Positions 3,455-39,918 of a DNA stretch of 64,000 nucleotides are shown here, piece by piece (the stretch's first letter is position 1; each line of letters begins with the position of its first letter). The DNA is from an uncultured Christensenellaceae bacterium. Its GTDB lineage: Bacteria; Bacillota; Clostridia; Christensenellales; UBA3700. Where the stretch lies: the NCBI GenBank assembly GCA_944383895.1, contig CALWRH010000001.1, forward strand, positions 185,199 through 249,198, written 5' to 3'. The position numbers and the translations under genes are program-made. Under the pieces are notes generated by a model, which had not been told where the DNA came from, searched no databases, and saw only the letters and a list, made by a program, of their open reading frames with translations.

Positions 3455-3503
3455 ATAGTATTACCGTAACCCTTTGCCGAACGAACACACGTTCTATACT
3501 TAT

Positions 3504-26690: not shown

Positions 26691-27749
26691 ATGAAAATCG
26701 TACTTACGGGCGGAGGAACGGCAGGACACGTTACCCCCAACCTCGCGCTTTTACCTTATCTCAAAAATTATTTTGAAAAAATAATTTATGTCGGCAGCGA
26801 AAACGGAATAGAAAAACGCCTTTGCGCAGAATACGGGATCGAATACTATTCGACGCCCGTCGTAAAACTACGCAGGGATGCACTTCTCAGCTGCGTAAAC
26901 GTGCCTTTTAAGCTCGCAGGCTGCGTGAAAGAAGCCAAAAAGCTGCTTAAAGACATCTCTCCCGACATCGTCTTTTCAAAGGGCGGATACGTCGCTCTTC
27001 CGACGTGCATAGCGGCTTCGAAACTAAGAATACCCGTAGTTGCGCACGAATCGGACATTACGCTCGGACTTGCCAACAAGATAACGTCGCTATTTGCAAA
27101 ATGCGTGGTGACATCATACAGCGGCACAAAGGCGAAAAACTCAGTGTTTATCGGCAATCCGCTCAGGGACGAACTGTTTGAAGCGGACGGCACGGGCGTG
27201 GCGAAAAAATACGGTCTTCCTTGCAAAAAACCTCTGCTGCTCGTAGTAGGAGGCTCGGGGGGATCGCATGCTCTGAACGAAATAATTTACGCGTCGCTGG
27301 AAGATCTTCTCGAAAAATACGAGATAATACACATAACTGGCAAAGACGCTGACGACGTAAAGAAAAAAGGATACTTCGCAAAACCTTACGCAAACGATAT
27401 ATTCGATCTTTACGCTGCTGCCGACGCGATAATTTCGAGAGCAGGCGCAAACGCAGTGAGAGAGATATCCGCACTCGGCAAAAGAGTTATTTATATACCC
27501 TTGCCGAAATCCGCGTCGAGAGGAGATCAGATACTAAATGCGAAAGAGGCTGCCGCCGGCGGACGCGGTCTGGTGCTCGAACAGGAATCTCTGACAAGGA
27601 CAAAACTTCTCACTTCTCTCGACTTTCTGTTATCCTCTCCCGCACCCGGTCCCGTCAAAGACATATCTGTAAACGAGAAGATAGCTAAACTTTTGCTCAA
27701 TACTGCAGAAACGTATTCGGAAAACAGCAGACTCAAAGCAAAAAATTGA
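26691..27749 (+). CDS. murG: UDP-N-acetylglucosamine--N-acetylmuramyl-(pentapeptide) pyrophosphoryl-undecaprenol N-acetylglucosamine transferase
   Basis: MurG converts lipid I to lipid II on the inner face of the membrane. The 352-residue GT-B protein has GGGTAGHVTPNLAL at the N-terminus, the KGGYVALP motif, HESDITLGLANK, GGSGGSHALNE and the C-terminal donor site around SRAGANAVREISALGK. It begins MKIVLTGGGTAGH with AGGAG nine bases upstream. It stands alone on the plus strand rather than in a mur/fts cluster. Confidence 0.95.
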   Translation: MKIVLTGGGTAGHVTPNLALLPYLKNYFEKIIYVGSENGIEKRLCAEYGIEYYSTPVVKLRRDALLSCVNVPFKLAGCVKEAKKLLKDISPDIVFSKGGYVALPTCIAASKLRIPVVAHESDITLGLANKITSLFAKCVVTSYSGTKAKNSVFIGNPLRDELFEADGTGVAKKYGLPCKKPLLLVVGGSGGSHALNEIIYASLEDLLEKYEIIHITGKDADDVKKKGYFAKPYANDIFDLYAAADAIISRAGANAVREISALGKRVIYIPLPKSASRGDQILNAKEAAAGGRGLVLEQESLTRTKLLTSLDFLLSSPAPGPVKDISVNEKIAKLLLNTAETYSENSRLKAKN

Positions 27750-27805: not shown

Positions 27806-28090
27806 TTATTTTTTAGTATTATCTATTATTTCTTCGATTATTTCTGTAATACTTGCGTTCTGTTCCGACACTTGCGCATCGTCTGAATTTACATCTTCGA
27901 CTGCATTTTCTTCAGTCTGCTGCTTAGGCGGCTTTACGATAAATCCGCTTACCGCGAGAAATCCGAGAAACGCGGTCGTTATCTCCTGCAGATAAGGTAT
28001 TTGCGTAGTAAACCCGACAGCCTGCAAAACTACGAATATCGCGCTTGCTACCGCCATCCAGAAATCGTACGATTTGATTTTTTCCTTCAT
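27806..28090 (-). CDS. Phage holin-like protein (two membrane segments)
   Basis: A 94-residue protein starting MKEKIKSYDFWMAV, with two hydrophobic helices (about residues 9-25 and 33-51) and a long acidic, asparagine-rich tail. The layout resembles the phi LC3-type holin family, which permeabilises the membrane during lysis. The ATG at 28090 follows AAGGGGGAG; a longer overlapping frame upstream is compositionally unlike protein and is rejected. It is the last gene of the phage operon. No endolysin gene follows: the operon ends at the terminator shared with murG. Confidence 0.7.
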   Translation of the reverse strand: MKEKIKSYDFWMAVASAIFVVLQAVGFTTQIPYLQEITTAFLGFLAVSGFIVKPPKQQTEENAVEDVNSDDAQVSEQNASITEIIEEIIDNTKK

Positions 28091-28104
28091 ATTCTCCCCC
28101 TTCT

Positions 28105-28386
28105 TTATGCCGACGCCGCCGTCTGCTCTGCGTCCTGAGAGTCGTCCGTCTGTCCGTACTCCTGCATCCCGAGCCCGCATCTCACGTCGTATTTTATTTC
28201 TTCCACGTCCTTTGCCACTTGCTTTACGCAGGTAAGACTGTCCCCGAGAGAGGCTATCGTTTCCTGATACTTCTGCTCTCTTCTGCGGCTGTCTTTGAGC
28301 TCGAAAATAAGGAGCAGACAAAACAGAACCGCCCACGCGCCGTTTGCGACTACGGCCTCTATCGCGCTGTCCCACATGACTTTCAC
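28105..28386 (-). CDS. BhlA/UviB-like holin-type protein
   Basis: A 93-residue protein with one N-terminal membrane helix (WAVLFCLLLIFEL, residues about 18-30), followed by a basic segment RRREQKYQETI and an amphipathic helix. This pattern is that of the BhlA/UviB bacteriocin-associated holin-like family. It lies 14 bases upstream of the second holin-like gene, so the cluster has two candidate membrane-permeabilising proteins. Confidence 0.7.
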   Translation of the reverse strand: MKVMWDSAIEAVVANGAWAVLFCLLLIFELKDSRRREQKYQETIASLGDSLTCVKQVAKDVEEIKYDVRCGLGMQEYGQTDDSQDAEQTAASA

Positions 28387-28392
28387 CTCCGT

Positions 28393-29382
28393 TTACTTTG
28401 CATCTTTCGCCTTTTTCACGAATTTCGCAAGCAACGTGTTGTATTCGAACCCGAGATAGGTTTGAAGATAATGATTATTCAGTATCATGTCTTTTGCCGT
28501 CTGAGGGTCAAATCCGTCGTAAAACTCTACGGCTATATTGAGTCTTTCGGCGTAGTCGTCCGCCTTTTCTCCGACGTAACCGTATTTCGTTTCGTACTCC
28601 GCCTGCGCATAATCCGCTTCCATCTGTCTTTTTACGTCTTCCTGTATCGCCTTTTCGCGTTCGAGCTTATACTCCGCTATCTGCTCTGAGATCTTGTTGT
28701 TGTATTCCTGTATGGATTTGATCTCCTTGTCGCGCTTTGCTATAAGGTCTTCTATCTCGGTAGATATCTTTATGACGTATTCAGCATTGAGATCGTCTAT
28801 CGCCGCCTGCAGCTCTTTGTTGAGCCCGTCTATCTGCACCTGATATTTTTTCGCAACGTTGTCGGCGTCATTCTTCGCCTCCTGTATCATCATATCCGCC
28901 TGTTGCTGCGCGCTCGCTCCGACGAGGTTTTTTATAGAAGATCGGGACAATCCGCTCTCTATCATCTTGTTTTCGTTCTTTTTCTTTTTGCTCTCGAGCG
29001 ACGCAAGGATCTCCGCCTCGGTCTTTCCGTAATCGTAATAAGCGTCTTCAGCCTTGTTCGCAAGTTCGTCGGTCTTGCTTTTGGTTTCAGATTCGAGCAC
29101 GTTCTTTTCGCTCTCGAACTTACTACCGTAATCGCCTTCTACGGACTGACGTATTTCGTCTTCGCTCGCGCCCGTATATTCTTTGTATTCGTAATCAGGC
29201 TCTTCGGGCAAAGACTCCGCCGCAGACTCTTTGCGTTCCTCGAGTTCTTTGCGTCTGTAATCCGTATGCATCTGCTTGAGTTTTGCTATAAGTTCGTCTT
29301 CCGTAGTTATTTTGGTTCTGCCGTTACCCGCAGCCGAACTCTCGTTACGGACGGACGCGGTAGGTAAAAAATTCACGTTCAT
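28393..29382 (-). CDS. Phage-cluster coiled-coil protein, possible ejection or tail-needle-like component
   Basis: A 329-residue protein dominated by charged heptad-like sequence from about residue 60 to 280 (rich in E, K, A, Q), with a short low-complexity N-terminus and a folded-looking C-terminus (NHYLQTYLGFEYNTLLAKF). No membrane segment or enzymatic motif is visible. By position after the hub-like protein it could be a virion internal or ejection protein, or an elongated tail component. Its ATG overlaps the stop of a 27-codon gene (ATGA), and it has a good AGAAGGAGA ribosome binding site. No specific function can be assigned. Confidence 0.6.
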   Translation of the reverse strand: MNVNFLPTASVRNESSAAGNGRTKITTEDELIAKLKQMHTDYRRKELEERKESAAESLPEEPDYEYKEYTGASEDEIRQSVEGDYGSKFESEKNVLESETKSKTDELANKAEDAYYDYGKTEAEILASLESKKKKNENKMIESGLSRSSIKNLVGASAQQQADMMIQEAKNDADNVAKKYQVQIDGLNKELQAAIDDLNAEYVIKISTEIEDLIAKRDKEIKSIQEYNNKISEQIAEYKLEREKAIQEDVKRQMEADYAQAEYETKYGYVGEKADDYAERLNIAVEFYDGFDPQTAKDMILNNHYLQTYLGFEYNTLLAKFVKKAKDAK

Positions 29383-29462
29383 ACCGTTCTCCTTCTTAAA
29401 ATGTAATAATTGTAACGCCCGAAAATCTTCTTCAAGGCGCGTTGCGCGTAAGTCTGTTTCAT
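29379..29462 (-). CDS. Small basic protein of 27 residues in the phage operon
   Basis: A short frame reading MKQTYAQRALKKIFGRYNYY followed by ILRRRTV. Its ATG (29462) overlaps the stop codon of the upstream 118-residue gene, and its stop overlaps the ATG of the downstream coiled-coil gene; both junctions are ATGA. A strong ribosome binding site, AAAAGGAGGG, stands nine bases before its start. The product is strongly basic (eight Lys/Arg, no acidic residue). It fills the only gap in an otherwise gapless stretch of the operon. Standard length cut-offs would miss it. Function unknown. Confidence 0.65.
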   Translation of the reverse strand: MKQTYAQRALKKIFGRYNYYILRRRTV

Positions 29463-29815
29463 ATCCTCAGCCCTCCTTTTGCCTTGATACACAGCCTGAC
29501 TTCAGTCGCGACCGTCGCTGCGGTAAACGTCAGGACATGTCGTGTCCTGCCGAGGTTTTCTATCTCTTTGCGCCATATCCTTCCTGTCGCCGTAGCAAAA
29601 GCGGCGTCGTCGAGCTTTACGTCTATATCGCAGACTTCTCCGTATACGGCTATCTCGAGATCCAGACTTCCTGTACACCACAGAGTGACACTATGCGGCT
29701 TTTCGGCATCAAGTCTGTCGAGCACTTCGACAAATTCGACGTCCCTATTGTTATAGACGTATTCAGCCGTTTCGAGAGCCTGTTTCGCAGTACGTTCAAT
29801 TCTCGAAATATTCAT
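29459..29815 (-). CDS. Phage-cluster hypothetical protein, 118 residues
   Basis: A small soluble protein with a helical N-terminus (SRIERTAKQALETAEYVYNN) and beta-rich remainder (VTLWCTGSLDLEIAVYGEV). Its ATG overlaps the stop of the hub-like gene (29815-29812). It is not recognised. Position suggests a virion assembly or neck role. Similarity to a known head-tail completion protein cannot be judged by eye. Confidence 0.65.
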   Translation of the reverse strand: MNISRIERTAKQALETAEYVYNNRDVEFVEVLDRLDAEKPHSVTLWCTGSLDLEIAVYGEVCDIDVKLDDAAFATATGRIWRKEIENLGRTRHVLTFTAATVATEVRLCIKAKGGLRI

Positions 29816-31272
29816 CTGTCCCTCCTCATAAAGTCAACCGTGATACCGAAAGGCTTGATCTTCACGTCAGACACCGAGCATTTGATGTAAAAATCGAAAC
29901 ACATACCGCTTTTACCTATCGCCGCGTATTTTTTAGACGGATCGAGATGATATTCGGTCGCTTTTCCGTCCGCGACGACTCCAAGAACAAAAGGAGTATC
30001 CGTGCAGTAGTCAACGCCGAGCACATACTTTTTATTGACGTGCTCGTTAAAATCGACGTCCTTTATCAGCCAATATCTGAACGGCGGCTCACTGAAGAAT
30101 CTGCCTTTGTCGTTTACTTCGGCAACGCAGTCCGAAATAGCGGACAACGCGAGCACGCAGTTTTGTCTTGTGCCCGCAAGCACGCACATATCGCGTATCT
30201 TCGCGCCGCGGTATATCTCCGTCGTGCCCTTTTCTGTATCGACTACGACGAGCACGTTGGGTCCGTCCTCGTTGGAGGTATAGTCGTAAATACCGTCTTC
30301 GTGCTCTTTGTCAAAAGTCAGATAGTACCTGCCTCCGCAATAGAGCGCCCTGAGATCCTCTGCGTCTTTGACAAGATCGTCAAGCCTGTCAGTAAGCCTG
30401 GTAACGTCATAGCCGTCCATAGAGAACAGTCCGTCGCTCGTAACGAACATGACAAGCGCGCCGCAAACCGTTATCGTATCCTTGTATATCCTGCCGCAAT
30501 CGCAATGCACGCGCTTTATCGTAAACTGCAGCTGATCTGCATAAGCAGTCAGTCTGTATATGCCGTACTCGCAGAAAATGTAAATGTAGTCTTCGAAACT
30601 GAGCACTCTCAAAACTTCGCCGAGCGAGCCGTCCAGCGATATATAACCGCCCTCGTCGAGAGAAACGTTCCAATTATAAGGATCGAAAGCGTCCGAAAAC
30701 CAGACGCTCGTGCGCACTCCGTCCACGACGGCGTAAACTCTCTCGTAATGAGTGCAAAGGTCGGTTATAGCAAGCGCGTCGGCGGCAAACTGTCCGCCTT
30801 GCGCGCTCATGACGTACAGTCCGTCGCCTCCTCCGCCGAGCAGCATGAGATCGTTATCTTCGTGAAGGTATCCGGTCGCCGAAGTGAATTGTCTGTCCAT
30901 ACTGACGTTCTCCGCCCATTGCTGATCTTTGCCGAGTCTTATATACGTCAGCTTGTCGGGAGCGGACAAAAAAAGGCACTCGTAAGGACCGTTCTCATTG
31001 CTGAGTTTTCCGCAGAACAATCTGGCGTCTGCATATCCGTCGGGCACGGGCGGAATCTCATAATCCGTTCCGTCTTCGCATTTATAAGAGAATTTTCCAA
31101 GTCCTACGCCGCCTGTCAGCGTGTTGTTTTCAAAACCGAAATTGTATACGTCTTCGCAGTAATCGCAAGGCAGAGTGTTTACGCTCGAAGTCTTGTCAAA
31201 GCCTTTGAAAGAAGAAAACCTGTAACGTTTTCTCGTCGGTTTGTCGACTGAAAACTTTTTTTCGTAAAACAT
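29812..31272 (-). CDS. Phage neck/tail hub protein, P22 gp10-like candidate
   Basis: A 486-residue beta-rich protein beginning MFYEKKFSVDKPTRKRYRF. The repeated short strands with GGG turns (LMLLGGGGDGLYVMS, YIFCEYGIYRLTA, VMFVTSDGLFSMDGYDV) suggest a beta-propeller. In P22-like phages the plug/hub protein gp10 is of about this size and follows gp4, as here. The start at 31272 overlaps the preceding stop (TGATG); a longer frame to 31404 lies inside the upstream gene and is rejected. The gp10 assignment is inference from order, length and fold appearance. Confidence 0.55.
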   Translation of the reverse strand: MFYEKKFSVDKPTRKRYRFSSFKGFDKTSSVNTLPCDYCEDVYNFGFENNTLTGGVGLGKFSYKCEDGTDYEIPPVPDGYADARLFCGKLSNENGPYECLFLSAPDKLTYIRLGKDQQWAENVSMDRQFTSATGYLHEDNDLMLLGGGGDGLYVMSAQGGQFAADALAITDLCTHYERVYAVVDGVRTSVWFSDAFDPYNWNVSLDEGGYISLDGSLGEVLRVLSFEDYIYIFCEYGIYRLTAYADQLQFTIKRVHCDCGRIYKDTITVCGALVMFVTSDGLFSMDGYDVTRLTDRLDDLVKDAEDLRALYCGGRYYLTFDKEHEDGIYDYTSNEDGPNVLVVVDTEKGTTEIYRGAKIRDMCVLAGTRQNCVLALSAISDCVAEVNDKGRFFSEPPFRYWLIKDVDFNEHVNKKYVLGVDYCTDTPFVLGVVADGKATEYHLDPSKKYAAIGKSGMCFDFYIKCSVSDVKIKPFGITVDFMRRDR

Positions 31273-31814
31273 CAGTACCACCCCCGCGATTTTATAGTCA
31301 CGCTTCGGGAAGGACGCACGCAAGAACGCATATCTTCTCTGAATCTCTCCGCAAACCCTTCGCTTTGCTCGTACATGCCCGATATCATTGAGTACTCCGC
31401 GCATACGCCGAGTGCGAGAGTTTTTTCGCTGACTGCGGGATCGACGTCACAGTCCTCGCCTATCTTTACCTGCGACGGAAGATAGCGGTATGCGATCTTC
31501 AGTCTGCCGTTTACGTCGACGTTGCAGCTGAACGAGCGTTGTCTGAAACTTATCTTATTGCCGTCTTTGTCTTTGACCGACACGATCCTGCTGACCCTTC
31601 TCGGGATCTGTTCGTAGGAGAATCTGTTGTCTTCTGCCACTACTTCGCACTCGTCGACAAGCGGCAGATACTCCTGCGCGATTTCGGTAAGCATTATGTT
31701 GACACATCTTTCAAGCAGTTTTATTTTGTCGTCCTGCGCCTTGTCCTTTCCCGCGTCGTAGTCGTTTTCTCCGAGATACGCGAGAGCGGCATTGATTACC
31801 TCTTCAACTTTCAT
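31272..31814 (-). CDS. Phage head-tail connector (adaptor) protein candidate, P22 gp4-like
   Basis: A 180-residue, largely helical protein (EEVINAALAYLGENDYD at the N-terminus, LGVCAEYSMISGMYEQSEGFAERF near the C-terminus) with a central beta segment. Size and location between the capsid gene and the hub-like gene match portal-adaptor proteins such as P22 gp4. The start has an AAAAGGAGG ribosome binding site placed just after a transcription-terminator-like hairpin. Confidence 0.6.
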   Translation of the reverse strand: MKVEEVINAALAYLGENDYDAGKDKAQDDKIKLLERCVNIMLTEIAQEYLPLVDECEVVAEDNRFSYEQIPRRVSRIVSVKDKDGNKISFRQRSFSCNVDVNGRLKIAYRYLPSQVKIGEDCDVDPAVSEKTLALGVCAEYSMISGMYEQSEGFAERFREDMRSCVRPSRSVTIKSRGWY

Positions 31815-31831
31815 TTTGCCTCCTTTTGAAA

Positions 31832-31852
31832 AAGGGCGGAAAATCCGCCCTT
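31832..31852 (-). terminator. Internal terminator-like hairpin in the phage operon
   Basis: A perfect 9-bp stem (AAGGGCGGA, 3-base loop, TCCGCCCTT) followed on the minus strand by further T residues (five in a row at the stem's end). It lies in the 42-base gap between the 105-residue gene and the connector gene. It would reduce transcription of connector and tail genes relative to the capsid gene. Confidence 0.65.
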
Positions 31853-31856
31853 CCTT

Positions 31857-32174
31857 TTATATGCGCAAACCGTCAAGCGCCTTTTTTGCCGCCTCTTCTA
31901 CGGCTCTTTTTTCCGCCGAGGCGTTTGCCTTCTCAATCTCTTCGAGAAGTTCGTCGATACGCTCGATCCTCGTCTTGCGTACATAGTCAACAGCGCGGCT
32001 GTCAAGCCTGTCAAAAGGCAATACTACCTGAAGACTGTTGTCGTCAGCGCTCCTGACTTCGAATTTTCTACTTTCCCCGTTATAGTAGATTTTGTATTTG
32101 TCGTCTATGCTTTTTATTCTGTCCGCAACCGAGAACAAGTCGTTTTCGACGGCAATCAGGCGCCCGTTATTCAC
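31857..32174 (-). CDS. Phage-cluster hypothetical protein, 105 residues
   Basis: A soluble 105-residue protein: beta-rich first half (YKIYYNGESRKFEVRSADD), helical, lysine/glutamate-rich second half (RIDELLEEIEKANASAEKRA). Its ATG overlaps the major capsid protein stop (ATGA), so it is translationally coupled to it. It may be a capsid-associated or decoration factor by position only; no family is recognised. Confidence 0.6.
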   Translation of the reverse strand: MNNGRLIAVENDLFSVADRIKSIDDKYKIYYNGESRKFEVRSADDNSLQVVLPFDRLDSRAVDYVRKTRIERIDELLEEIEKANASAEKRAVEEAAKKALDGLRI

Positions 32175-33340
32175 GCGGTTATTCCGGACAGCTTGTACTG
32201 ACCTATCGGCTTGTCGCAGATAAGGTCCGCGTATTTGACGAGAGTTGCGGAATAGGTTGCGCTACCCGCTTTCTGCTTTATGACTCTGCCGCCGTCGCCC
32301 TCGAGCCATCTCCAGTCGCAAAGCTGATGCAACTTGAAATCGCCCGTATTGAGCATGTACATCGTGCCGTCTTCGACAAACTTGTCTGCGACTACGGGAA
32401 TACCGTTGAACGTTACTGCTTTGTAACCGCCGTCGAGGTTCATGTAGTCGAGATTCATACGCGAGCTCATGCAGTTGTCGAGATAGAATCTTCTGACGTC
32501 ATAAGCGCATACGATCATATCGATAACGCCGCCCGAAACCTCTTCTACTTCGTCGATCGCACTCTGCATGCCGACGAAAGATATAGCTCCGACGTTGTCT
32601 TTGCTGCCGCTCTTCATCCACTCTCTGCCGCTTCTCGCAAGTCCGTAGAGATCTTTGTCCGAGAAGATAGCGCCGAGGCCCGTGAGTTCGTTGTCCTTAG
32701 AACCCTGTACGGTAAGGTAGTCGCCGTCTGCAACCGTACCGCCGCTTACTCCGCCGAACGTAACGGTTTTGGTCGCTCTGTCGACGGACGTGATCCTGAC
32801 GCCCTTGAGCCCTTCGCGGACGGTGTTCATGCTGCCGTCGTAAACGTCCACGACCATGCCTTCCATAAGATTTTTTACGCTCTTGACGACGATCTTGTTG
32901 TTTGCGCCGCCCTGTGCGGAAACGGTAGCGATCTTGCCCGAACCGTCACCGTAAAGCATTCTGCCCAGATTGAATTTGGACGCTTTAAGCAAGCCTTCCA
33001 TTTCTGCATCGAGCAGGTTTACGAACGCGCCGACGCTGTTCTGCGACGCTCTTATCGCCTTGTCGGACAATTCGATCGTGCCGTACAGGTTCTTGAGTTC
33101 GAGTCTGAAACGGTCGTAGTTGTTAGCTGCGGCTGCGGGAAGATCGCCCGTTTCGGTACCTGCTCCGATACCGCCGTTGAGTCCGTAAGGCACGAGCTTT
33201 ACTATTTCTTTGCCCCATACGTCGGAGCTCGTCTGCTTGATCTTTGCAAGAAGGGGGTTTACGCCCACGTTCAGCTGATTTGCCACGACTCCGAGATATA
33301 CGGTCTTGAGTGCCTTTTCGGCTGTTTCCATTGTTACCAT
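32171..33340 (-). CDS. Phage major capsid protein
   Basis: A 389-residue protein with features of HK97-fold coat proteins of the P22/N4-gp56-like type. The N-terminal helix is VANQLNVGVNPLLAKI, followed by a glycine-rich loop (YGLNGGIGAGTETGDLP), then ELKNLYGTIELSDKAIRAS, and a C-terminal P-domain/A-domain segment with NGIPVVADKFVEDGTMYMLN. It follows the scaffold-like gene and has the strongest ribosome binding site of the cluster (AGGAGG, nine bases from ATG), in keeping with high expression. Confidence 0.8.
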   Translation of the reverse strand: MVTMETAEKALKTVYLGVVANQLNVGVNPLLAKIKQTSSDVWGKEIVKLVPYGLNGGIGAGTETGDLPAAAANNYDRFRLELKNLYGTIELSDKAIRASQNSVGAFVNLLDAEMEGLLKASKFNLGRMLYGDGSGKIATVSAQGGANNKIVVKSVKNLMEGMVVDVYDGSMNTVREGLKGVRITSVDRATKTVTFGGVSGGTVADGDYLTVQGSKDNELTGLGAIFSDKDLYGLARSGREWMKSGSKDNVGAISFVGMQSAIDEVEEVSGGVIDMIVCAYDVRRFYLDNCMSSRMNLDYMNLDGGYKAVTFNGIPVVADKFVEDGTMYMLNTGDFKLHQLCDWRWLEGDGGRVIKQKAGSATYSATLVKYADLICDKPIGQYKLSGITA

Positions 33341-33343
33341 ATT

Positions 33344-34066
33344 TTATATCCTCCTGTTTGCGAGCATATTTTTTACTATACCGCCCGCCTCGCGTATGCT
33401 CCTTGGTCGCGACGGCGGCGTGACGTGAGTTCTTCCGCTTGCGGCAATCGTGCGCGGAGCCTGCACATCCATATTTCTTCGGAGAAAATCTTCTATTATC
33501 CTGTCCCTCACTCTGTCGTTGCCGTAGACGTATTTTTCGAGAAATTCTTCGTCGCCGACAAGTTCTTCGTAAGGTCTGTCCGCTTTCTGAAGGACGTCGA
33601 AATACGCCTTTTCAAGGCAGTCTTTTCTCTGAGAAAGTTCTGCGTTCGATGCAAGCGTCTTTGCGATGTCTTTTGCGTATCTTGCGGCAGAGGGATATTT
33701 TGACATAAACTGCTCAACCGTGTTGTCCCAGTCAGGCGATTCGTAAAGCGGAGTTCTCGCCGCATCGCTGTCGTTTACCGTCGGCAACTCTGTATTCTGC
33801 CCGTCCGGTCGCGACGACGGCGGCTCCGTTTCGCAAGGTGTCGCATGACATGCCGATTCTGCTCTCGCAGTTTCGAGAGCGCGGCTGAGCTGTGCGTTCT
33901 GCTGGCATTTTTTAGTAAACTCTCTTTGCAGATTGTCGTATGCCTTCTCAAGTTCGTCTGCCGTGGCGAACTTATTGCAAAAGGCGGGTTTTTCCTTGTC
34001 CGCGACGTCAGCTGTATCAGCTGCATCGAGGGGGACGTTTTCCGTTTGTTTTTGCATTTCTTCCAT
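33344..34066 (-). CDS. Phage scaffold-like protein
   Basis: A 240-residue hydrophilic protein located directly before the capsid gene, the usual place of scaffold genes. The N-terminal half has a helical ELEKAYDNLQREFTKK segment and a proline/serine/threonine-rich linker. A helical segment (MSKYPSAARYAKDIAKTL) follows, then a basic C-terminus (PPSRPRSIREAGGIVKNMLANRRI) that could bind the coat protein. There is no protease motif. The assignment is from position, composition and charge distribution. Confidence 0.65.
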   Translation of the reverse strand: MEEMQKQTENVPLDAADTADVADKEKPAFCNKFATADELEKAYDNLQREFTKKCQQNAQLSRALETARAESACHATPCETEPPSSRPDGQNTELPTVNDSDAARTPLYESPDWDNTVEQFMSKYPSAARYAKDIAKTLASNAELSQRKDCLEKAYFDVLQKADRPYEELVGDEEFLEKYVYGNDRVRDRIIEDFLRRNMDVQAPRTIAASGRTHVTPPSRPRSIREAGGIVKNMLANRRI

Positions 34067-34080
34067 ATATTTTCTCCCTG

Positions 34081-35979
34081 TCAGTCTTTATTAGCGTTTT
34101 CCTGATTTGCGGCAGAAAGCGTCTTGGCTGCCGCGGACTCGTCCATCATTTCGAACATCTGATGTTCTTTGATGTGCGCGTCCATAAGTCCGTATAGTTT
34201 TTTGTCTTTAAGCACGCTCTCTTCGAGCAGACACTTTATGTGCTCGGTTATGTGTATAGAGTGATCGTCGTAAGGGCACGCGGAGATCTGCTCTTTGCCC
34301 AGCGAAAGATTTTCCTTCATCGCGCGTTTTCTCTGCGTTTCGTCCACGTCTTTCGCGCTTTCCCAATTGCCTATGCCGAGCATCTCGAGTACCTTGACTT
34401 TGGTGCGCGGACTCATCGTTCCGTCTGCCTCTGTCAGCACTCCCATGCGTATGAGTTCGAGCACCATGCTGCGCTTTTCACCGACGGTTTCCGTAACGTC
34501 GTCCTGAGTATTGAACACGAGGTCTTCGCATTGCAGATCGTTTCCGTTGAAATAAGTGAGCTCGGGCTCTCCGTTTTCTCCCGAGATACGCTTGAGTCTT
34601 TTCTCGGTAGCGAACTGCTTATAAAGATAAAGCATTATCCTGCACACTCTTTTGATGCAGATCCTGAGCGACGCCGTAGAAAGCGACATACGCGTATCGT
34701 CCTGATTAACGAGAAGAGATATTGCCTTTCCCGACATGTTGCCGTAAGTCTGAGAGTATTTGCTCAGTTCGCTGACTCCGCTCACGGTAACGAATTCGCT
34801 CAAAAGTCTCTCCTCTTCGTAAGTAAAATCCGCAGGCACGCTGCCCGTTTCTATAAATCTCGGTATATTTGATCCCTGACGGTATATAAGCACTTTACCC
34901 GGCGACAATCCTTCCTCTTCCAGATTGTCCATATCCACACTGCCGTCTTCGACCGCGAGTATGCCCATAGAAATACGGTTGAGATATTCGTGTTTTCTGT
35001 TCTTTACGGCATTGTAACTGCGCTGAAGAGGTATCATCCTTTCGACTACCGAAGTGCCGAAAAAACTGCCGACCTTTTTAATGCAGTTTGTCTGTGCGAA
35101 CGGAAATCCTCTTCTTTGCTGAACGTCGGTGATATACGGCAGATCGCCGTAATAGAGAAGCTTGTCGCCTGCTACGATAACAAGCTCTCCCGAAGGTTTA
35201 TCCTTGGTGGGTCTTGTATATCTTTCTATCACTACCGCATATCCGTCCACTTTTGAAGAGATAACGTTTCCTACGCTTGCGTTGTATCCGAGTCCTCCTG
35301 CGACAGCAGCGTTGTCGAGAGTGAAAACGTTGACTTCTTCTCCTTCTGTTCTGACTCCCCACCTGTCCTCTATCTCGCTCACGGGATAGGCTTTAGCGTG
35401 TATGATGCTATTGCACTCTTCAAGTGATCCCGCGCACACGTTGTCGGGAAAAATTTCGAACGGAGGAACAACAGTTATACGAACATCTCCTACACTGACA
35501 GGATTTTTTCCTTTATCGTTGCAAAGAACGTCGCCCATATCCTTATCCCATACGACTTTGAAAAAGCACGATCCCGTTACTTCGCTCCAGGCGACCGCGT
35601 CGTTGATGAGCGAGGACAGCTCGTTCTGCTCTGCGACCGCGCTGATAAGCGCAGTTGAAAGCTTTGCTGCCTGTATATCCGATTCGTCTGTAGAGAACGG
35701 TCTGACAGTAAGTCCCGTATTCACTCTTGTTAGCTTGGACATACGCGTCTCGAGTACCGACGCGATGTGATTGTACACCTCGCGCTCCTGCCAGAAGTAC
35801 TGCTTGCCGAACTCCTCCACTTCACCTGTCGGCATGATCTGCATATATTGATTTCCGTTTACGAAATTCATATTGAGCTGCCATTGAAGTTCGAGTGGTT
35901 TTCTGTCCTCTCTTCGCCTTTCGTAGTCCTTTCTGACTTCTGCGACTATATCTTCGGCAAATAATTTCTTATCTTTCAT
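34081..35979 (-). CDS. Phage portal protein, P22-type
   Basis: A 632-residue portal protein, the dodecameric ring at the DNA-packaging vertex. Length and content fit the P22-like portal family: an N-terminal helical wing (DYERRREDRKPLELQWQLNMNF), NHIASVLETRMSKLTRV, the region with VTGSCFFKVVWDKDMG, then PFEIFPDNV, and a long C-terminal helical part. The ATG at 35979 follows GGGGAGAGG; an in-frame extension to 36078 lies in the preceding gene and is excluded. The ORF is intact. Confidence 0.8.
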   Translation of the reverse strand: MKDKKLFAEDIVAEVRKDYERRREDRKPLELQWQLNMNFVNGNQYMQIMPTGEVEEFGKQYFWQEREVYNHIASVLETRMSKLTRVNTGLTVRPFSTDESDIQAAKLSTALISAVAEQNELSSLINDAVAWSEVTGSCFFKVVWDKDMGDVLCNDKGKNPVSVGDVRITVVPPFEIFPDNVCAGSLEECNSIIHAKAYPVSEIEDRWGVRTEGEEVNVFTLDNAAVAGGLGYNASVGNVISSKVDGYAVVIERYTRPTKDKPSGELVIVAGDKLLYYGDLPYITDVQQRRGFPFAQTNCIKKVGSFFGTSVVERMIPLQRSYNAVKNRKHEYLNRISMGILAVEDGSVDMDNLEEEGLSPGKVLIYRQGSNIPRFIETGSVPADFTYEEERLLSEFVTVSGVSELSKYSQTYGNMSGKAISLLVNQDDTRMSLSTASLRICIKRVCRIMLYLYKQFATEKRLKRISGENGEPELTYFNGNDLQCEDLVFNTQDDVTETVGEKRSMVLELIRMGVLTEADGTMSPRTKVKVLEMLGIGNWESAKDVDETQRKRAMKENLSLGKEQISACPYDDHSIHITEHIKCLLEESVLKDKKLYGLMDAHIKEHQMFEMMDESAAAKTLSAANQENANKD

Positions 35980-36193
35980 ACCCTCTCCCCGACGTTTTTT
36001 TGTTGAGCATGTTTTTAGGACTTTTGGGCGTAAGTATTTTGCCGATATGTCCATAAATTTCACGCATGCAATCTTCACACAGATTGAGCGAGTTGCGCTT
36101 GTCTCCGCTGTCGAGACAAAACTGATACGACGCGTTGTTTTTGCACGTCGGCATCTCGCATTTAGTCTTTACGCTTAGTTTTTGTACCTGCAT
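35969..36193 (-). CDS. Small zinc-ribbon-like protein in the phage cluster
   Basis: A 74-residue protein with two CxxC-like pairs, CEMPTCKNNASYQFC and CEDC, the pattern of a treble-clef or zinc-ribbon fold. It overlaps both neighbours (32 bases with the 99-residue gene upstream, 11 with the portal gene). It has a near-perfect AAAGGAGG ribosome binding site seven bases before ATG, which argues that it is real. Possible roles are DNA or terminase binding. It is not a recognised family. Confidence 0.65.
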   Translation of the reverse strand: MQVQKLSVKTKCEMPTCKNNASYQFCLDSGDKRNSLNLCEDCMREIYGHIGKILTPKSPKNMLNKKTSGRGYER

Positions 36194-36461
36194 TTTCTGC
36201 CTCCTTTAAGTTGATCTTTGCGAGCTCGGAGAGCAATCTCTCCTTGAGTTCTTTCAGTTGCTCGTCGGTATATCCTTCGAGCGGATTTTCGTCTGATCTT
36301 TCCAGCACCGCCTTTATCGCGGTCGTATCGGGCGGTATGTATTTTTTGGATATCTTGCATTTTGTTACTTCGTTGTCGCGATCGTATTCTTCGACTTTTT
36401 CTTCTACGAAATAACCTGTTGCCTTTTTCATAAGAATACTGTCTATCTTCTTTTTTCTCAT
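36162..36461 (-). CDS. Phage packaging-associated small protein, possible small terminase
   Basis: A 99-residue charged protein: a short beta segment (GYFVEEKVEEYDRDNEV), then the motif KKYIPPDTTAIKAVLE and a C-terminal helical tail with LTDEQ-like sequence (YTDEQLKELKERLLSELAKI). Similar small proteins accompany terminase genes in gut phages. Its ATG overlaps the large terminase stop (36461-36458). It is too short and lacks a clear HTH for confident assignment as TerS, and it lies after TerL rather than before it. Confidence 0.55.
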   Translation of the reverse strand: MRKKKIDSILMKKATGYFVEEKVEEYDRDNEVTKCKISKKYIPPDTTAIKAVLERSDENPLEGYTDEQLKELKERLLSELAKINLKEAENAGTKTKRKD

Positions 36462-37885
36462 AGTCCGCTCCGTTTGAGTTTGCTTATCAGCTTGTCTTTG
36501 TCCCGCTGTATCACCGTCTTTGCGGTTTTAGGCGGCTTTGTCGGCTCGGGCTTTGTCATAATGTAGTAGCGCAATGCATCGAGCGCGTGGTCGTCTTTCT
36601 TGACGGGCCTGTCACCGTTACCCCACCAATACGACTTGAGCTCCCTGATAAGGTTGACGCAGCAAGGGAATATCTTTATTCTGTCGGTTGCAAAATAAGA
36701 CTTTACTCTCGCTATGCCGCTGAAGAGATCTTTGTCGACGCGCGTATTTACCGCAATGCCTCTTTCGAAAAACAGATCCGCCACGCTTTTAGCGCTCGCA
36801 AGAGTTTTCTGCGTCGCCGCGCTGTCTATAAGAGCCTCGAGCCTTCCCTTACCGTCTCTGTGCCAGCCGAGCGAATCTGCCGTTTCGAATATCTTTTTTG
36901 CGTGATAGTCTATATCTCTGCCTGCCTCGTACCACTCTCCCACAACGTATACCACGCCGTCGTAATCGGTTGCAAAAAAAAGACACGCCAGCGGATTATT
37001 CAGACCGGGGTCTATGCTTATCGTGTCCTGCCACTCGAAAGGCACTGCAAACGGCGTTTCGAGAACATGCCTTGACGGATCGAATTCTCTGTACACAATT
37101 CCTTCCGACGCGCTGAATTTTCCGTAACGTCTCGAATTGAGCGTTTCTTCGTCCATACATCCGCTGAGTGCCGCCACTTCTTCGGGATCAAGAAAGGGAT
37201 TGTCTGCCCACTCCATCTGAGTGCACCATATCTCGTTGTCGCCGCCGCTGTTGAGATATATCAGATCGTACACCCATGTCAGCCCTTTAAGCGGCGTCAT
37301 TGTACCCCAAATCTCGCCTTTGCGGTCGAGGACTCGCATGCGGCACTCCTGATAGATATCGAGCGGCGGCTCTTCGTCGAACCATACAAAATCGAGCGAC
37401 GTACCCTGAAATTTTTCTCTGCCCTGATCGCAGCTTTTGAAAGCTATCTTGGATATTCCTCCCGACACGTTTTTAATGAGGATATAGTCTATAATGCCGT
37501 ACTGCGCACTCTCCTTGCGTCCAGACGACATGACGATATCTTCTATCCAATCGGGGTTGAGATAGCTAAGGAATTTGCTCTGTGCAACGTCTCTCTGCAC
37601 CTCGTAAGACAGAGAAACTATCCAGCCTTCAACGGCTCCTCTGTTTTTTCTGTACGGGTGGATACCCCTCGCCCACCATATCGCCTCTACCGCGCCGCAC
37701 TCGGTTTTTCCGCTTCTGTTGCCGCCGAAAACCCAGCGGTTGCGCTTTAGACACTTATGAAAAGCCATCTGTTTTTCGTGTATCTTCTCGCCCGTATTGT
37801 ATCTTTCGAGCCTGTTGTTGTCGTGGCGGCGTTTCTGCTCTCTTTCGATAGCGAGAATTTTCGCCAATATTTCTTTTTCAGTCAT
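36458..37885 (-). CDS. Phage terminase large subunit
   Basis: A 475-residue packaging motor. The ATPase has Walker A GGNRSGKT (residues 54-61) and Walker B VWFDEE (167-172). The C-terminal RNase H-like nuclease has its first acidic residue in SIDPGLNNP, a second in the ALIDSA region, and a final DHALDALRY motif. All core residues look intact, so the motor is potentially functional. It is the first gene of the leftward phage operon, with a GGAGG ribosome binding site before ATG at 37885. Confidence 0.92.
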   Translation of the reverse strand: MTEKEILAKILAIEREQKRRHDNNRLERYNTGEKIHEKQMAFHKCLKRNRWVFGGNRSGKTECGAVEAIWWARGIHPYRKNRGAVEGWIVSLSYEVQRDVAQSKFLSYLNPDWIEDIVMSSGRKESAQYGIIDYILIKNVSGGISKIAFKSCDQGREKFQGTSLDFVWFDEEPPLDIYQECRMRVLDRKGEIWGTMTPLKGLTWVYDLIYLNSGGDNEIWCTQMEWADNPFLDPEEVAALSGCMDEETLNSRRYGKFSASEGIVYREFDPSRHVLETPFAVPFEWQDTISIDPGLNNPLACLFFATDYDGVVYVVGEWYEAGRDIDYHAKKIFETADSLGWHRDGKGRLEALIDSAATQKTLASAKSVADLFFERGIAVNTRVDKDLFSGIARVKSYFATDRIKIFPCCVNLIRELKSYWWGNGDRPVKKDDHALDALRYYIMTKPEPTKPPKTAKTVIQRDKDKLISKLKRSGL

Positions 37886-37934
37886 ATTCCTCCGATAAAC
37901 GCTATATTTTTACAGTAAATAAGAATTTTTATTA

Positions 37935-37962
37935 TTGCGATATGCCGCCGATAGTGTATAAT
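37935..37962 (+). promoter_or_regulatory. Promoter of the plus-strand secreted membrane protein gene
   Basis: TTGCGA (37935-37940), 16-base spacer, TATAAT (37957-37962), about 46 bases before the ATG at 38009. The terminase gene is divergent from this region. Confidence 0.6.
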
Positions 37963-38008
37963 ATTAGTAACCCTGCGGACGGATCACGTCTGCCATAAGG
38001 AGCTAACA

Positions 38009-38866
38009 ATGAAAAAAATCATTTCTGTTCTTATACTCGTCGCCGCTGTCTGCATGCTTTGCACAGGCACAGCTTTTGCTGCGACTACGGGGGCTGACGG
38101 ACAGACTTTTTATATCGCAACAGACGACATAACCGTATACGTCAGATCTACGGACGGAATTTATCAGCCGGCTTTCATAATTCCCGAAAGCTACTACTTC
38201 CGCACTCTTAGTCAGGACGGCGAATATGTATCGATCGTCTACAACAATAATATCGATTATTCGATCTCTCTTTACGTCAGAAGCTCGGATATGCAGTCTT
38301 CCGCAACCGTTACCAAGGATAACGTTACGGACAGCAATGCGGGATACAAACTGAACGATCTTCAGATAACCAATAAAACTGAAATCCTTTTCTATGCTCC
38401 TGGCAATCTTGATAAGCACGTTGCCACTTATGACTTCGTAACCGAATACAACAGTTTTCTCGGCATCTATCAATCGGGAAATACCGTATATTTCACAGAG
38501 ATCGTAACGGCACCGACATACAAAGTGCTGATGTTCGAAGCAAAAGACACCAACTACATGTCTTTCAACAGATCGTCCATACCTCTGCATCAGATAACGA
38601 TTGATCGCAACAATGCCGAAAACGAAGGCGTGATATCAACTCCTACCGACGAAACGGGCGAAACGGGTCAGAATAACGTAATCCGCAATGTTATGATAGC
38701 GATAATCTGCATAATGTGCGTGATTGTTATTTTCCTAATCTTCCGTCCGACCAAAAACGCGAAAAACCGTTACGAAATGGACAACCGTGAAAATGCCGAC
38801 AACGGCAAATACGGCGACAACAACCGTCGATATGACGACGAGCGTTACGACAGCGGCAGACGCTAA
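38009..38866 (+). CDS. Secreted, membrane-anchored protein of unknown function beside the phage cluster
   Basis: A 285-residue protein with a clear signal peptide (MKKIISVLILVAAVCMLC, cleavage near residue 24). It has an extracytoplasmic beta-rich region with an SH3-like look (DDITVYVRSTDGIYQPAFII), a single membrane segment at about residues 226-247, and a short cytoplasmic tail rich in N, D, R and Y. AAGGAG precedes the ATG. It lies between the terminase gene (divergent) and the regulator gene (convergent, stop codons overlapping by a few bases). It could be a lysogenic-conversion gene or a host gene at the edge of the phage cluster. No family is recognised. Confidence 0.75.
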   Translation: MKKIISVLILVAAVCMLCTGTAFAATTGADGQTFYIATDDITVYVRSTDGIYQPAFIIPESYYFRTLSQDGEYVSIVYNNNIDYSISLYVRSSDMQSSATVTKDNVTDSNAGYKLNDLQITNKTEILFYAPGNLDKHVATYDFVTEYNSFLGIYQSGNTVYFTEIVTAPTYKVLMFEAKDTNYMSFNRSSIPLHQITIDRNNAENEGVISTPTDETGETGQNNVIRNVMIAIICIMCVIVIFLIFRPTKNAKNRYEMDNRENADNGKYGDNNRRYDDERYDSGRR

Positions 38867-39441
38867 TCGCCGCAGCCGATATTCGCTACTCTTTTATCTC
38901 CGAGTAACAATCCGGCAGCAACTGCGTCTTCGAGTCTGAGGCGCAGTTTTTTACTGTCAGACAACTTTCCGACGCGGCCGAAAACGTCCGCTCCTTTTTC
39001 TGCCTGAGAATAAAAATCCCCGATGATCACGTCTTTTGCATAGCGTTCTTCAAACCATTTATCGTCGTAACCGTCGGCTTTGAGCACGCATGCCGCCTTT
39101 TTAAGACCTTCTGCATACCAGCGGAAGGTACTCCTTTTGGAATAACCGAGCTTTAACGCAATGTCCTCCATCGTCATATTGAAACGTGCCCTGAGATAGA
39201 GTATCCTCGCGTATCTGAGGGGCAACTTTTCGAGCGTCCTGTCTACGAGAACTTTTGCGTTTACATACCCCTCAGCCCTTGCGTTGCAATCTATCAGCTT
39301 TTGTATAAGCCCCAGCGTGTCGCAATCGTAAAATCCCGACAAAGCGAGCGACTCCGACGTTTGTTTACACGCCTCTACCGCTCTCGGTAAATGTTTGTAA
39401 GCGGCTATCAAAGCCGTGACCCATAAAATATTTTTTTTCAT
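38863..39441 (-). CDS. Sigma-70 region 4-like helix-turn-helix protein, possible phage late regulator
   Basis: A 192-residue protein. The middle region resembles sigma-70 region 4: LPLRYARILYLRARFNMTMEDIA then LKLGYSKRSTFRWYAEGL (residues about 75-120). Proteins like this act as phage late-gene activators (for example ArpU/RinA-type), but a host ECF-like role is possible. The start is ATG at 39441, with GGAGGG eight bases upstream; an in-frame TTG five codons earlier is rejected. It is in the same orientation as the phage operon and is preceded by a long region with palindromic motifs. Confidence 0.65.
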   Translation of the reverse strand: MKKNILWVTALIAAYKHLPRAVEACKQTSESLALSGFYDCDTLGLIQKLIDCNARAEGYVNAKVLVDRTLEKLPLRYARILYLRARFNMTMEDIALKLGYSKRSTFRWYAEGLKKAACVLKADGYDDKWFEERYAKDVIIGDFYSQAEKGADVFGRVGKLSDSKKLRLRLEDAVAAGLLLGDKRVANIGCGD

Positions 39442-39918
39442 GCCTACCCTCCGCAACTCAGTATATAACCGAGGCTATCTCAAATCAATGTTCAGTGCCA
39501 ACATTTATGAACATTTGTTCGTATTTTTTAATATCATAACGCTATAAAATGTACACAATATGTCATATTAAACTCAAAATTTAGAAAATTTCGGAAGTAT
39601 TTATCAGTTAAAATGTGAACACAATGTAAAATGAAACACATTGCAAAACATTTTTATACAATTAAACATGCAAATTAATCAGCAACCGAATCAACATTGT
39701 AACAATTGAAAATCGATAAGCGGTAAACGTGATCAAAACGCTGCAAAAACACAATGCACATCGCAACTGTTGCGTATTAAAATTAAACACATATCGCTAT
39801 CGGTTCCGAGCGACAACCTAAAGCCTCTCTGCCATCCGCATTGTCAGACTAATCGGTATTTTATATATGATCAACTGAACAATATTATTATAAAGGTCAT
39901 CTTTTCTACAAACAAAAA
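39442..39918. other. AT-rich non-coding region with repeated short motifs
   Basis: About 480 bases without a credible gene. It holds a perfect inverted repeat AATGTTCA/TGAACATT (39487-39494 and 39508-39515) and the palindrome GAACATTTGTTC (39509-39520). There is an inverted pair CAATGT/ACATTG (39622-39627 and 39638-39643). ACACAAT occurs three times in direct orientation (39553, 39619, 39749), spaced 66 and 130 bases apart. These could be operator sites for the adjacent regulator or part of a replication or attachment region. No direct repeat matching the left edge of the phage cluster was seen. Confidence 0.55.

Follow-up and report, generated by a model that had tools for sequence, protein, structure and literature searches.

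A vertically inherited podovirus-like packaging module of the Christensenellales is a strong gene transfer agent candidate

The DNA considered here is a window of 64,000 nucleotides (assembly GCA_944383895.1, contig CALWRH010000001.1, positions 185,199 to 249,198), part of contig 1 of the 1.85 Mb genome of an uncultured Christensenellaceae bacterium, and our subject is a module of 15 genes that occupies about 27806-39456 of that window. We read this module, with a probability of roughly three in four, as the domesticated head, neck and nozzle gene set of an ancient temperate podovirus that has been inherited vertically across much of the order Christensenellales and forms a system resembling a gene transfer agent (GTA). 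Its genes are those for assembling and filling a small virus-like particle with a short tail, and the bacteria probably use it as a GTA triggered by DNA damage. Known here from its genes alone, the module passes every sequence test available and is classed as a strong GTA candidate. A sequence-only reading of the same DNA had offered three options, namely a decaying prophage, a helper-dependent satellite or a domesticated GTA-like particle, and it is the last of these that the comparisons below support.

Extent and gene content of the module

The sequence-only reading had described an operon of intact, leftward frames spanning about 10 kb. All named frames are indeed intact (Table 1), and the cluster proved to be larger, reaching to about 39456, with a sigma-like gene and a divergent membrane-protein gene as further members that accompany the large terminase gene TerL in 37/42 and 39/42 related loci, respectively. 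Housekeeping genes adjoin both sides. The end of murG, at 27749, is 57 bp from the module and rluD is separated from it by about 500 bp, leaving no space for further phage genes at the edges. Profile matches confirmed the identities proposed for TerL (phrog_2), portal (P22_portal), capsid (phrog_14242), the coiled-coil protein (DUF7934) and the two holin-like proteins (PF10960 and phrog_297), while fold comparison refined a "connector-like" head-tail protein to a podoviral head-to-tail adaptor and a "gp10-like" protein to a podoviral tail nozzle. The description as P22-like holds for the portal family and the gene order, but nozzle and adaptor match those of other podoviruses better.

Between the two housekeeping genes we found no integrase, repressor, replication, tailspike, fibre, ejection or endolysin gene within the module. 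The absences noted earlier were thus correct for integrase, replication, tailspike, fibre and endolysin, whereas the neck and the nozzle are encoded. The head genes are not joined to a full set of integrase, replication and lysis genes, as they would be in an active temperate phage: holins are there and an endolysin is not. A search of the rest of the genome, which had been suggested for lysin, integrase and tail genes, returned one Amidase_3 gene, with no link to the module shown, and two tyrosine recombinases, both away from the module. No member of the fibre-like gene group seen in other families (A8) turned up in the family when this genome and its relatives were searched.

Distribution and vertical inheritance

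TerL was found as an open frame in 39/46 genomes of the family, including 13/13 of the genus and nearly all of four other genera, and in 0/5 genomes of genus g6, an absence that we read as a loss, being nested within a positive family. The close relatives that carry TerL are titled Christensenellaceae, Christensenella, Borkfalkia, Gallimonas and Alloclostridium, and beyond the family it occurs in many other families of the order at 56-68% identity. The capsid profile was positive in 180 of 297 good-quality Christensenellales genomes, 175 of them with a single match, and in 8 of about 277 genomes of the same class outside the order. All eight core genes are present in 39/42 loci and their order deviates in only five, at least one of which (L044) owes its deviation to the calling of open reading frames (ORFs). 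Chance is excluded because the module is conserved in hundreds of genomes. On the PolA tree, presence of the module changes 6 times, compared with 14.6 times for shuffled labels.

We compared a tree of five concatenated module proteins with that of PolA in 37 genomes. The two trees have 24/34 splits in common (shuffles: mean 0.33, maximum 4), and their distances are correlated (Mantel r 0.93) with similar rates. With one genome per family r was 0.72; leaving out the two most phage-like families lowered it to 0.60 (P 0.001). Quartet agreement reached 92% inside the window's family and 72% between families. In addition, an rluD and methyltransferase flank is common to the window's genus (in family f1), family f7 and a decayed copy in f14.

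Comparison of gene content and of the ratio of nonsynonymous to synonymous substitutions (dN/dS) across relatives, proposed with the first reading, showed conserved order and dN/dS values of 0.04-0.28 over all 15 genes, indicating purifying selection, with 0.042 for TerL, about 0.055 for capsid and portal, and the weakest constraint (0.28) on a small beta-rich protein. The values were obtained by the Nei-Gojobori method with our own script in nine species of the genus and are approximate, since synonymous sites are near saturation. The Walker A motif and nuclease aspartates of TerL are intact, the GGNRxGKTE and DDHALD columns being conserved (alignment A1), in agreement with the earlier argument that its motifs speak against long neutral decay; judged at the sequence level, neutral decay of the module is excluded. 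Premature stops do not affect most related copies and were flagged in only a few (TerL in G039; capsid in G012 and G160). In side lineages the module has decayed (G058), been split (G095) or acquired a tandem duplicate of the capsid gene (G125).

These results bear on the view that the module is a decaying prophage remnant or helper-dependent satellite that hosts have repeatedly picked up anew from a shared pool of phages. Elements that are complete or phage-like are known among its relatives (G459 contig 18, G077), as are decayed or split copies (G058, G039, G095), but the lack of integrase and replication genes, the single copy, the shared locus, the low dN/dS and the host-congruent phylogeny, together with a complete cousin that is only 34-40% identical in core proteins, make this most improbable. 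We rejected a decaying prophage on its intact frames, low dN/dS and vertical, host-congruent inheritance, though decay is seen in side lineages such as G058. A mobile satellite in this lineage was rejected on the missing integrase, fixed locus, single copy and co-diversification with the host.

Phage relatives and likely origin

A prophage of about 30 kb on contig 18 of genome G459, from the same class and another family, runs from integrase to endolysin. It encodes an integrase, CI-type repressor, DnaB helicase, replication initiator, small terminase (TerS), TerL, portal, scaffold, capsid, p105, adaptor and nozzle, and ends with large tail proteins and an amidase endolysin. The order portal, scaffold, capsid, p105, adaptor, nozzle is that of the module, whereas the integrase, repressor, helicase, initiator, longer TerS (256 amino acids, with a Terminase_2 domain), large tail proteins and endolysin set it apart. 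Identities to the module are 40% for TerL, 34% for portal and 36% for the major capsid protein (MCP). A closely related complete prophage had been named as evidence that would count against domestication; only this distant cousin was found, and domestication is not refuted. Taking integration, immunity, replication, DNA recognition, the spike and the endolysin away from such a phage leaves the module, and the G459 prophage shows the module's likely ancestor type.

A second phage-like element, in genome G077, combines a repressor-like gene, a replication initiator, a regulator of the phrog_36 family as in the module, a longer TerS, a tailspike-like protein and DUF7934, and its capsid is identical to that of a 34.8 kb IMG/VR provirus. 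This genome holds two phage-like copies with tailspike-like genes (L071, L072; IMG/VR record of L204/L239).

Isolated phages come no closer than about 28-31% identity. Among them is the Jasminevirus Adat, an Arthrobacter phage (capsid 28%, TerL 29%), which resembles the module in the order TerL, small genes, portal, scaffold position and capsid, but is a complete 45 kb phage with large tail genes, two endolysins, a holin and a DNA polymerase. High-identity IMG/VR matches are mostly fragments of 4-20 kb. A recent prophage pool was rejected as the source on these two grounds, the distance of isolated phages and the fragmentary nature of most close IMG/VR matches. Many short gut-metagenome contigs filed as viral in IMG/VR (L154-L208) appear to be host-chromosome fragments that carry the module.

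Truncation of the small terminase

TerS is 99 amino acids long here, close to the relatives' median of 100, and 24/27 of its homologues match phrog_309. The match covers only the C-terminal part of that family, and the DNA-binding half is absent. Known GTAs have a small terminase without a detectable DNA-binding domain (PMC11841831), a trait that the module shares. TerS is longer in both phage-like relatives; in the G077 element it has 194 amino acids and matches phrog_4102 as well as a longer stretch of phrog_309. Direct comparison of module and prophage TerS gave no significant match, and it is on phrog_309 that the case for truncation is built.

The truncated TerS, which in known GTAs signals packaging without DNA specificity, also bears on whether the capsid is kept for another host role, either as a storage compartment or in interference with phages by hijacking capsids or packaging. 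The sharply lineage-bound retention of the module and the near-constant presence of the divergent, wall-binding-like membrane protein would suit such a role; since a compartment would need neither TerL nor portal, we regard it as very unlikely.

A probable SOS-type operator before the sigma-like gene

In Bacillus subtilis the SOS operator is GAACN4GTTC (PMC4234289). The same palindrome precedes the sigma-like gene, at a distance of no more than about 300 bp, in 39/89 non-redundant loci, and 26 of the 39 boxes read GAACAAATGTTC. Eleven control palindromes of the same letters occurred in 0-1 loci each, and shuffled sequences gave 0.24 on average. In the genomes of the genus that we examined, the lexA promoter carries GAACATATGTGC, or a sequence differing from it by one letter, at much the same distance from the gene. 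As the lexA promoters share this near-identical box, the box before the sigma-like gene is most likely the LexA operator of the lineage. If the proposed system is real, it would be, to our knowledge, the first GTA with a LexA-type operator directly before its own regulator. A second SOS-like palindrome, GAACACACGTTC, lies at 3483-3494 of the window, just upstream of a relA/spoT-like gene; three matches in the window are not above chance.

Comparison with known gene transfer agents

GTAs have been defined as caudoviricete-derived particles with mostly random host DNA, an endogenised genome, a head too small for the entire GTA genome, mostly vertical inheritance and delivery of DNA to other cells (Kogay et al. 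2022, PMC9662315). Three of these six features could be established from the module's sequence, the other three (DNA content, head size and delivery) being experimental. Caudoviricete-derived proteins are evident, at the level of genes, from TerL, portal and capsid by profile and from adaptor and nozzle by fold. Endogenisation is seen in the fixed chromosomal site between rluD and murG and in the missing integrase and replication genes, and vertical inheritance with co-diversification in the shared PolA splits, the Mantel correlation, the family-level test and the clustered presence.

The closest parallel is the podovirus-like FpGTA of Faecalibacterium (PMC12946183), likewise an operon of about 10 kb, whose TerS has no DNA-binding domain and which also encodes TerL, portal, scaffold, capsid and short-tail proteins; it has no replication genes and is near-ubiquitous in its own genus of gut Clostridia. 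FpGTA has a second operon with fibre, receptor-binding protein and endolysin; the module, unlike FpGTA, spans many families and has the sigma-like gene, the divergent SH3-membrane gene and the LexA-type box. A Faecalibacterium 16S signature had no match in the 391 genomes, and the two systems are likened by description, not by sequence. The alphaproteobacterial GTAs (RcGTA, CcGTA and BaGTA) also share vertical inheritance, co-diversification with the host, a TerS without DNA-binding domain and the lack of replication genes, but RcGTA has a long tail (PMC9662315) where the module has a podoviral adaptor and nozzle, and CcGTA is repressed by RogA (PMC9632790) where the module has a classical LexA box. 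BhGTA (VSH-1) of Brachyspira is similarly a small domesticated phage-like particle. DNA damage induces it (PMC9662315), a behaviour that the SOS-type box would predict for the module too, but it has a flexible 65 nm tail. These alphaproteobacterial and Brachyspira systems were set beside the module by description.

GTA-like packaging has been observed in Christensenellaceae of human faecal viromes, in 3/25 events, with the operon not named (PMC12946183, 2026) and the packaging not tied to the operon described here. A search of the open-access literature found no paper describing this module. We give slightly better than an even chance to the fuller proposal that the module is an SOS-controlled, podovirus-like GTA, passed down vertically from roughly the common ancestor of a dozen families and evolving at a PolA-like rate, that explains this virome packaging.

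Proposed mechanism and points against it

In the mechanism that we propose, DNA damage would lead RecA to trigger LexA cleavage and so derepress the sigma-like gene, whose product would drive the operon from TerL to the holins, as box and regulator suggest. A procapsid would form from scaffold, capsid and portal; together with a TerS deprived of its DNA-binding domain, TerL would presumably fill it by the headful with any available chromosomal DNA; and adaptor and nozzle, whose folds are seen in the models, would close the short tail. The holins, with a cell-wall hydrolase encoded elsewhere in the genome, may then lyse the producer and free the particles, and one might guess that the divergent SH3-membrane protein serves particle docking or the regulation of lysis.

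The same inventory could describe a domesticated killing or lysis device similar to PBSX, which would package host DNA without injecting it and benefit its carrier by killing relatives or through SOS-linked lysis. Missing tailspike, fibre and ejection genes would agree with this, two holins and an SOS-type box fit damage-linked lysis, and PBSX-like behaviour has been left open for FpGTA too (PMC12946183). We nevertheless consider it unlikely, given that selection preserves the parts for loading and ejecting DNA, namely the packaging motor, portal, adaptor and nozzle (dN/dS 0.04 for TerL), and that nothing recognisable as a contractile tail or bactericidal tip came to light.

Several points weigh against the module being a functional GTA. 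The module lacks both a receptor-binding protein and an endolysin, and no receptor-binding protein was identified in this genome, where one fibre-like family was sought, which leaves delivery hypothetical. A perfect LexA box is missing in more than half of the loci, and no such box was found in recA promoters. Congruence with PolA is imperfect at the family level, with one well-supported conflict and the 72% quartet agreement given above. Deep flanks are unlike between most families; as flanks differ in other families, relocation has occurred, and flanks, rejected as proof of a single locus across all families, give partial support only, many families being different. Finally, the genomes are mostly metagenome-assembled, and binning can affect absences and single-copy counts.

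If the GTA reading is true, bacteria common in animal guts possess, throughout an entire order, a heritable means of packaging chromosomal DNA, and possibly of exchanging it, upon DNA damage. It would be a very broadly conserved GTA in Gram-positive bacteria and would supply the gene basis for Christensenellaceae packaging so far lacking an operon. It would also show that podoviral domestication can persist over a dozen bacterial families, provide a large natural set for studying how a phage becomes a host organ (TerS loss, spike loss, split operons), and explain many gut IMG/VR "viral" contigs that resemble host-chromosome fragments.

Individual genes and unusual loci

Coordinates and matches are collected in Table 1. 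The likely true starts of portal (35979), nozzle (31272) and second holin (28090) were chosen from relatives' lengths and the ends of upstream genes, and the AlphaFold2 models of adaptor and nozzle drew on 25 homologues each.

Table 1. Predicted features of the module (window coordinates; E, E-value; pLDDT, predicted local distance difference test)
Feature	Position	Strand	Evidence
LexA (SOS) box GAACATTTGTTC, predicted	39509..39520	.	about 53 bp upstream of sigma-like gene
Sigma-70 region 4-like regulator	38863..39456	-	Sigma70_r4_2 E 3e-7; phrog_36 transcriptional regulator E 3e-7
Divergent secreted, membrane-anchored protein with bacterial SH3-like region	38009..38866	+	profile match to SH3 part of NlpC/P60 peptidases, E 1.5e-4
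Large terminase TerL	36458..37885	-	phrog_2 E 2.7e-29; Terminase_6N and 6C; dN/dS 0.042
Small terminase TerS, C-terminal part only	36162..36461	-	residues 10-87 match 202-273 of 319, phrog_309
Small four-cysteine (zinc-finger-like) protein	35969..36193	-	37/42 loci; cysteine pattern from sequence; no family match
Portal	34081..35979 (ORF open to 36078)	-	P22_portal E 1.1e-24; phrog_156 E 1.7e-36; dN/dS 0.056
Scaffold-like protein	33344..34066	-	between portal and capsid in 41/42 loci; no family match
Major capsid protein (MCP)	32171..33340	-	phrog_14242 major head protein E 6e-59; dN/dS 0.055
Small conserved protein after capsid	31857..32174	-	40/42 loci; no significant family match
Head-to-tail adaptor (gp4/gp11-like)	31272..31814	-	AlphaFold2 pLDDT 92; Foldseek to adaptors of KHP30, DEV, N4, Pa223, SU10
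Podoviral tail nozzle, beta-propeller	29812..31272 (ORF open to 31404)	-	AlphaFold2 pLDDT 85; Foldseek Pa223 tail E 3.7e-20, also VP1, SU10, GP4, T7
Small beta-rich protein, 118 amino acids	29459..29815	-	same position as proteins of 280-370 amino acids in other families; dN/dS 0.28
DUF7934 coiled-coil protein	28393..29382	-	PF25588 E 8e-39
BhlA-family holin	28105..28386	-	PF10960 E 4.1e-13; phrog_2429
Second holin	27806..28090 (ORF open to 28375)	-	phrog_297 holin E 2.5e-8

The sigma-like gene always lies on the strand of TerL, and its product is the probable late activator of the module. The divergent gene is always on the opposite strand and encodes a conserved C-terminal membrane segment; its SH3-like region suggests binding to the cell wall. 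Genus g6 has kept this gene beside rluD (G017, L368:4619-5389), with no packaging or head gene found there, and in g6 it may serve a function of its own.

The scaffold-like protein weakly matches the protein at the same position in the related prophage (E 2.6e-5). From its position and an N-terminal resemblance, its only basis, the small beta-rich protein may possibly be a fibre remnant. Families f18, f29 and f32 have two to three extra genes after the nozzle (280-330 and 525-626 amino acids, often with a further one of about 80), which are possibly fibres. DUF7934 also occurs in one phage-like relative, directly after the tailspike-like gene, and is probably an internal or tail-tip virion protein; its profile gave only weak matches in the PDB, to the coiled-coil region of Clp ATPase.

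A few loci are unusual in their arrangement. In a 67.7 kb IMG/VR contig an island with a WYL regulator, a cytosine methylase and a restriction helicase directly follows the module capsid gene (L208:5986-12763). The tandem capsid pair of G125 (L371:8035-10379) lies inside an otherwise normal module and possibly provides two capsid forms. In G095 of family f28 (L063 and L370), the sigma-like gene, divergent gene and TerL lie apart from the TerS-to-holin part by about 40-45 kb. Outside the order, in genus g170 of family f70 (L442, L443, L444 and L450), a smaller operon contains scaffold, capsid, p105, adaptor-sized and nozzle-sized genes in a similar arrangement in four genomes; neither TerL nor portal was found nearby, and the operon is perhaps a second, split GTA lineage.

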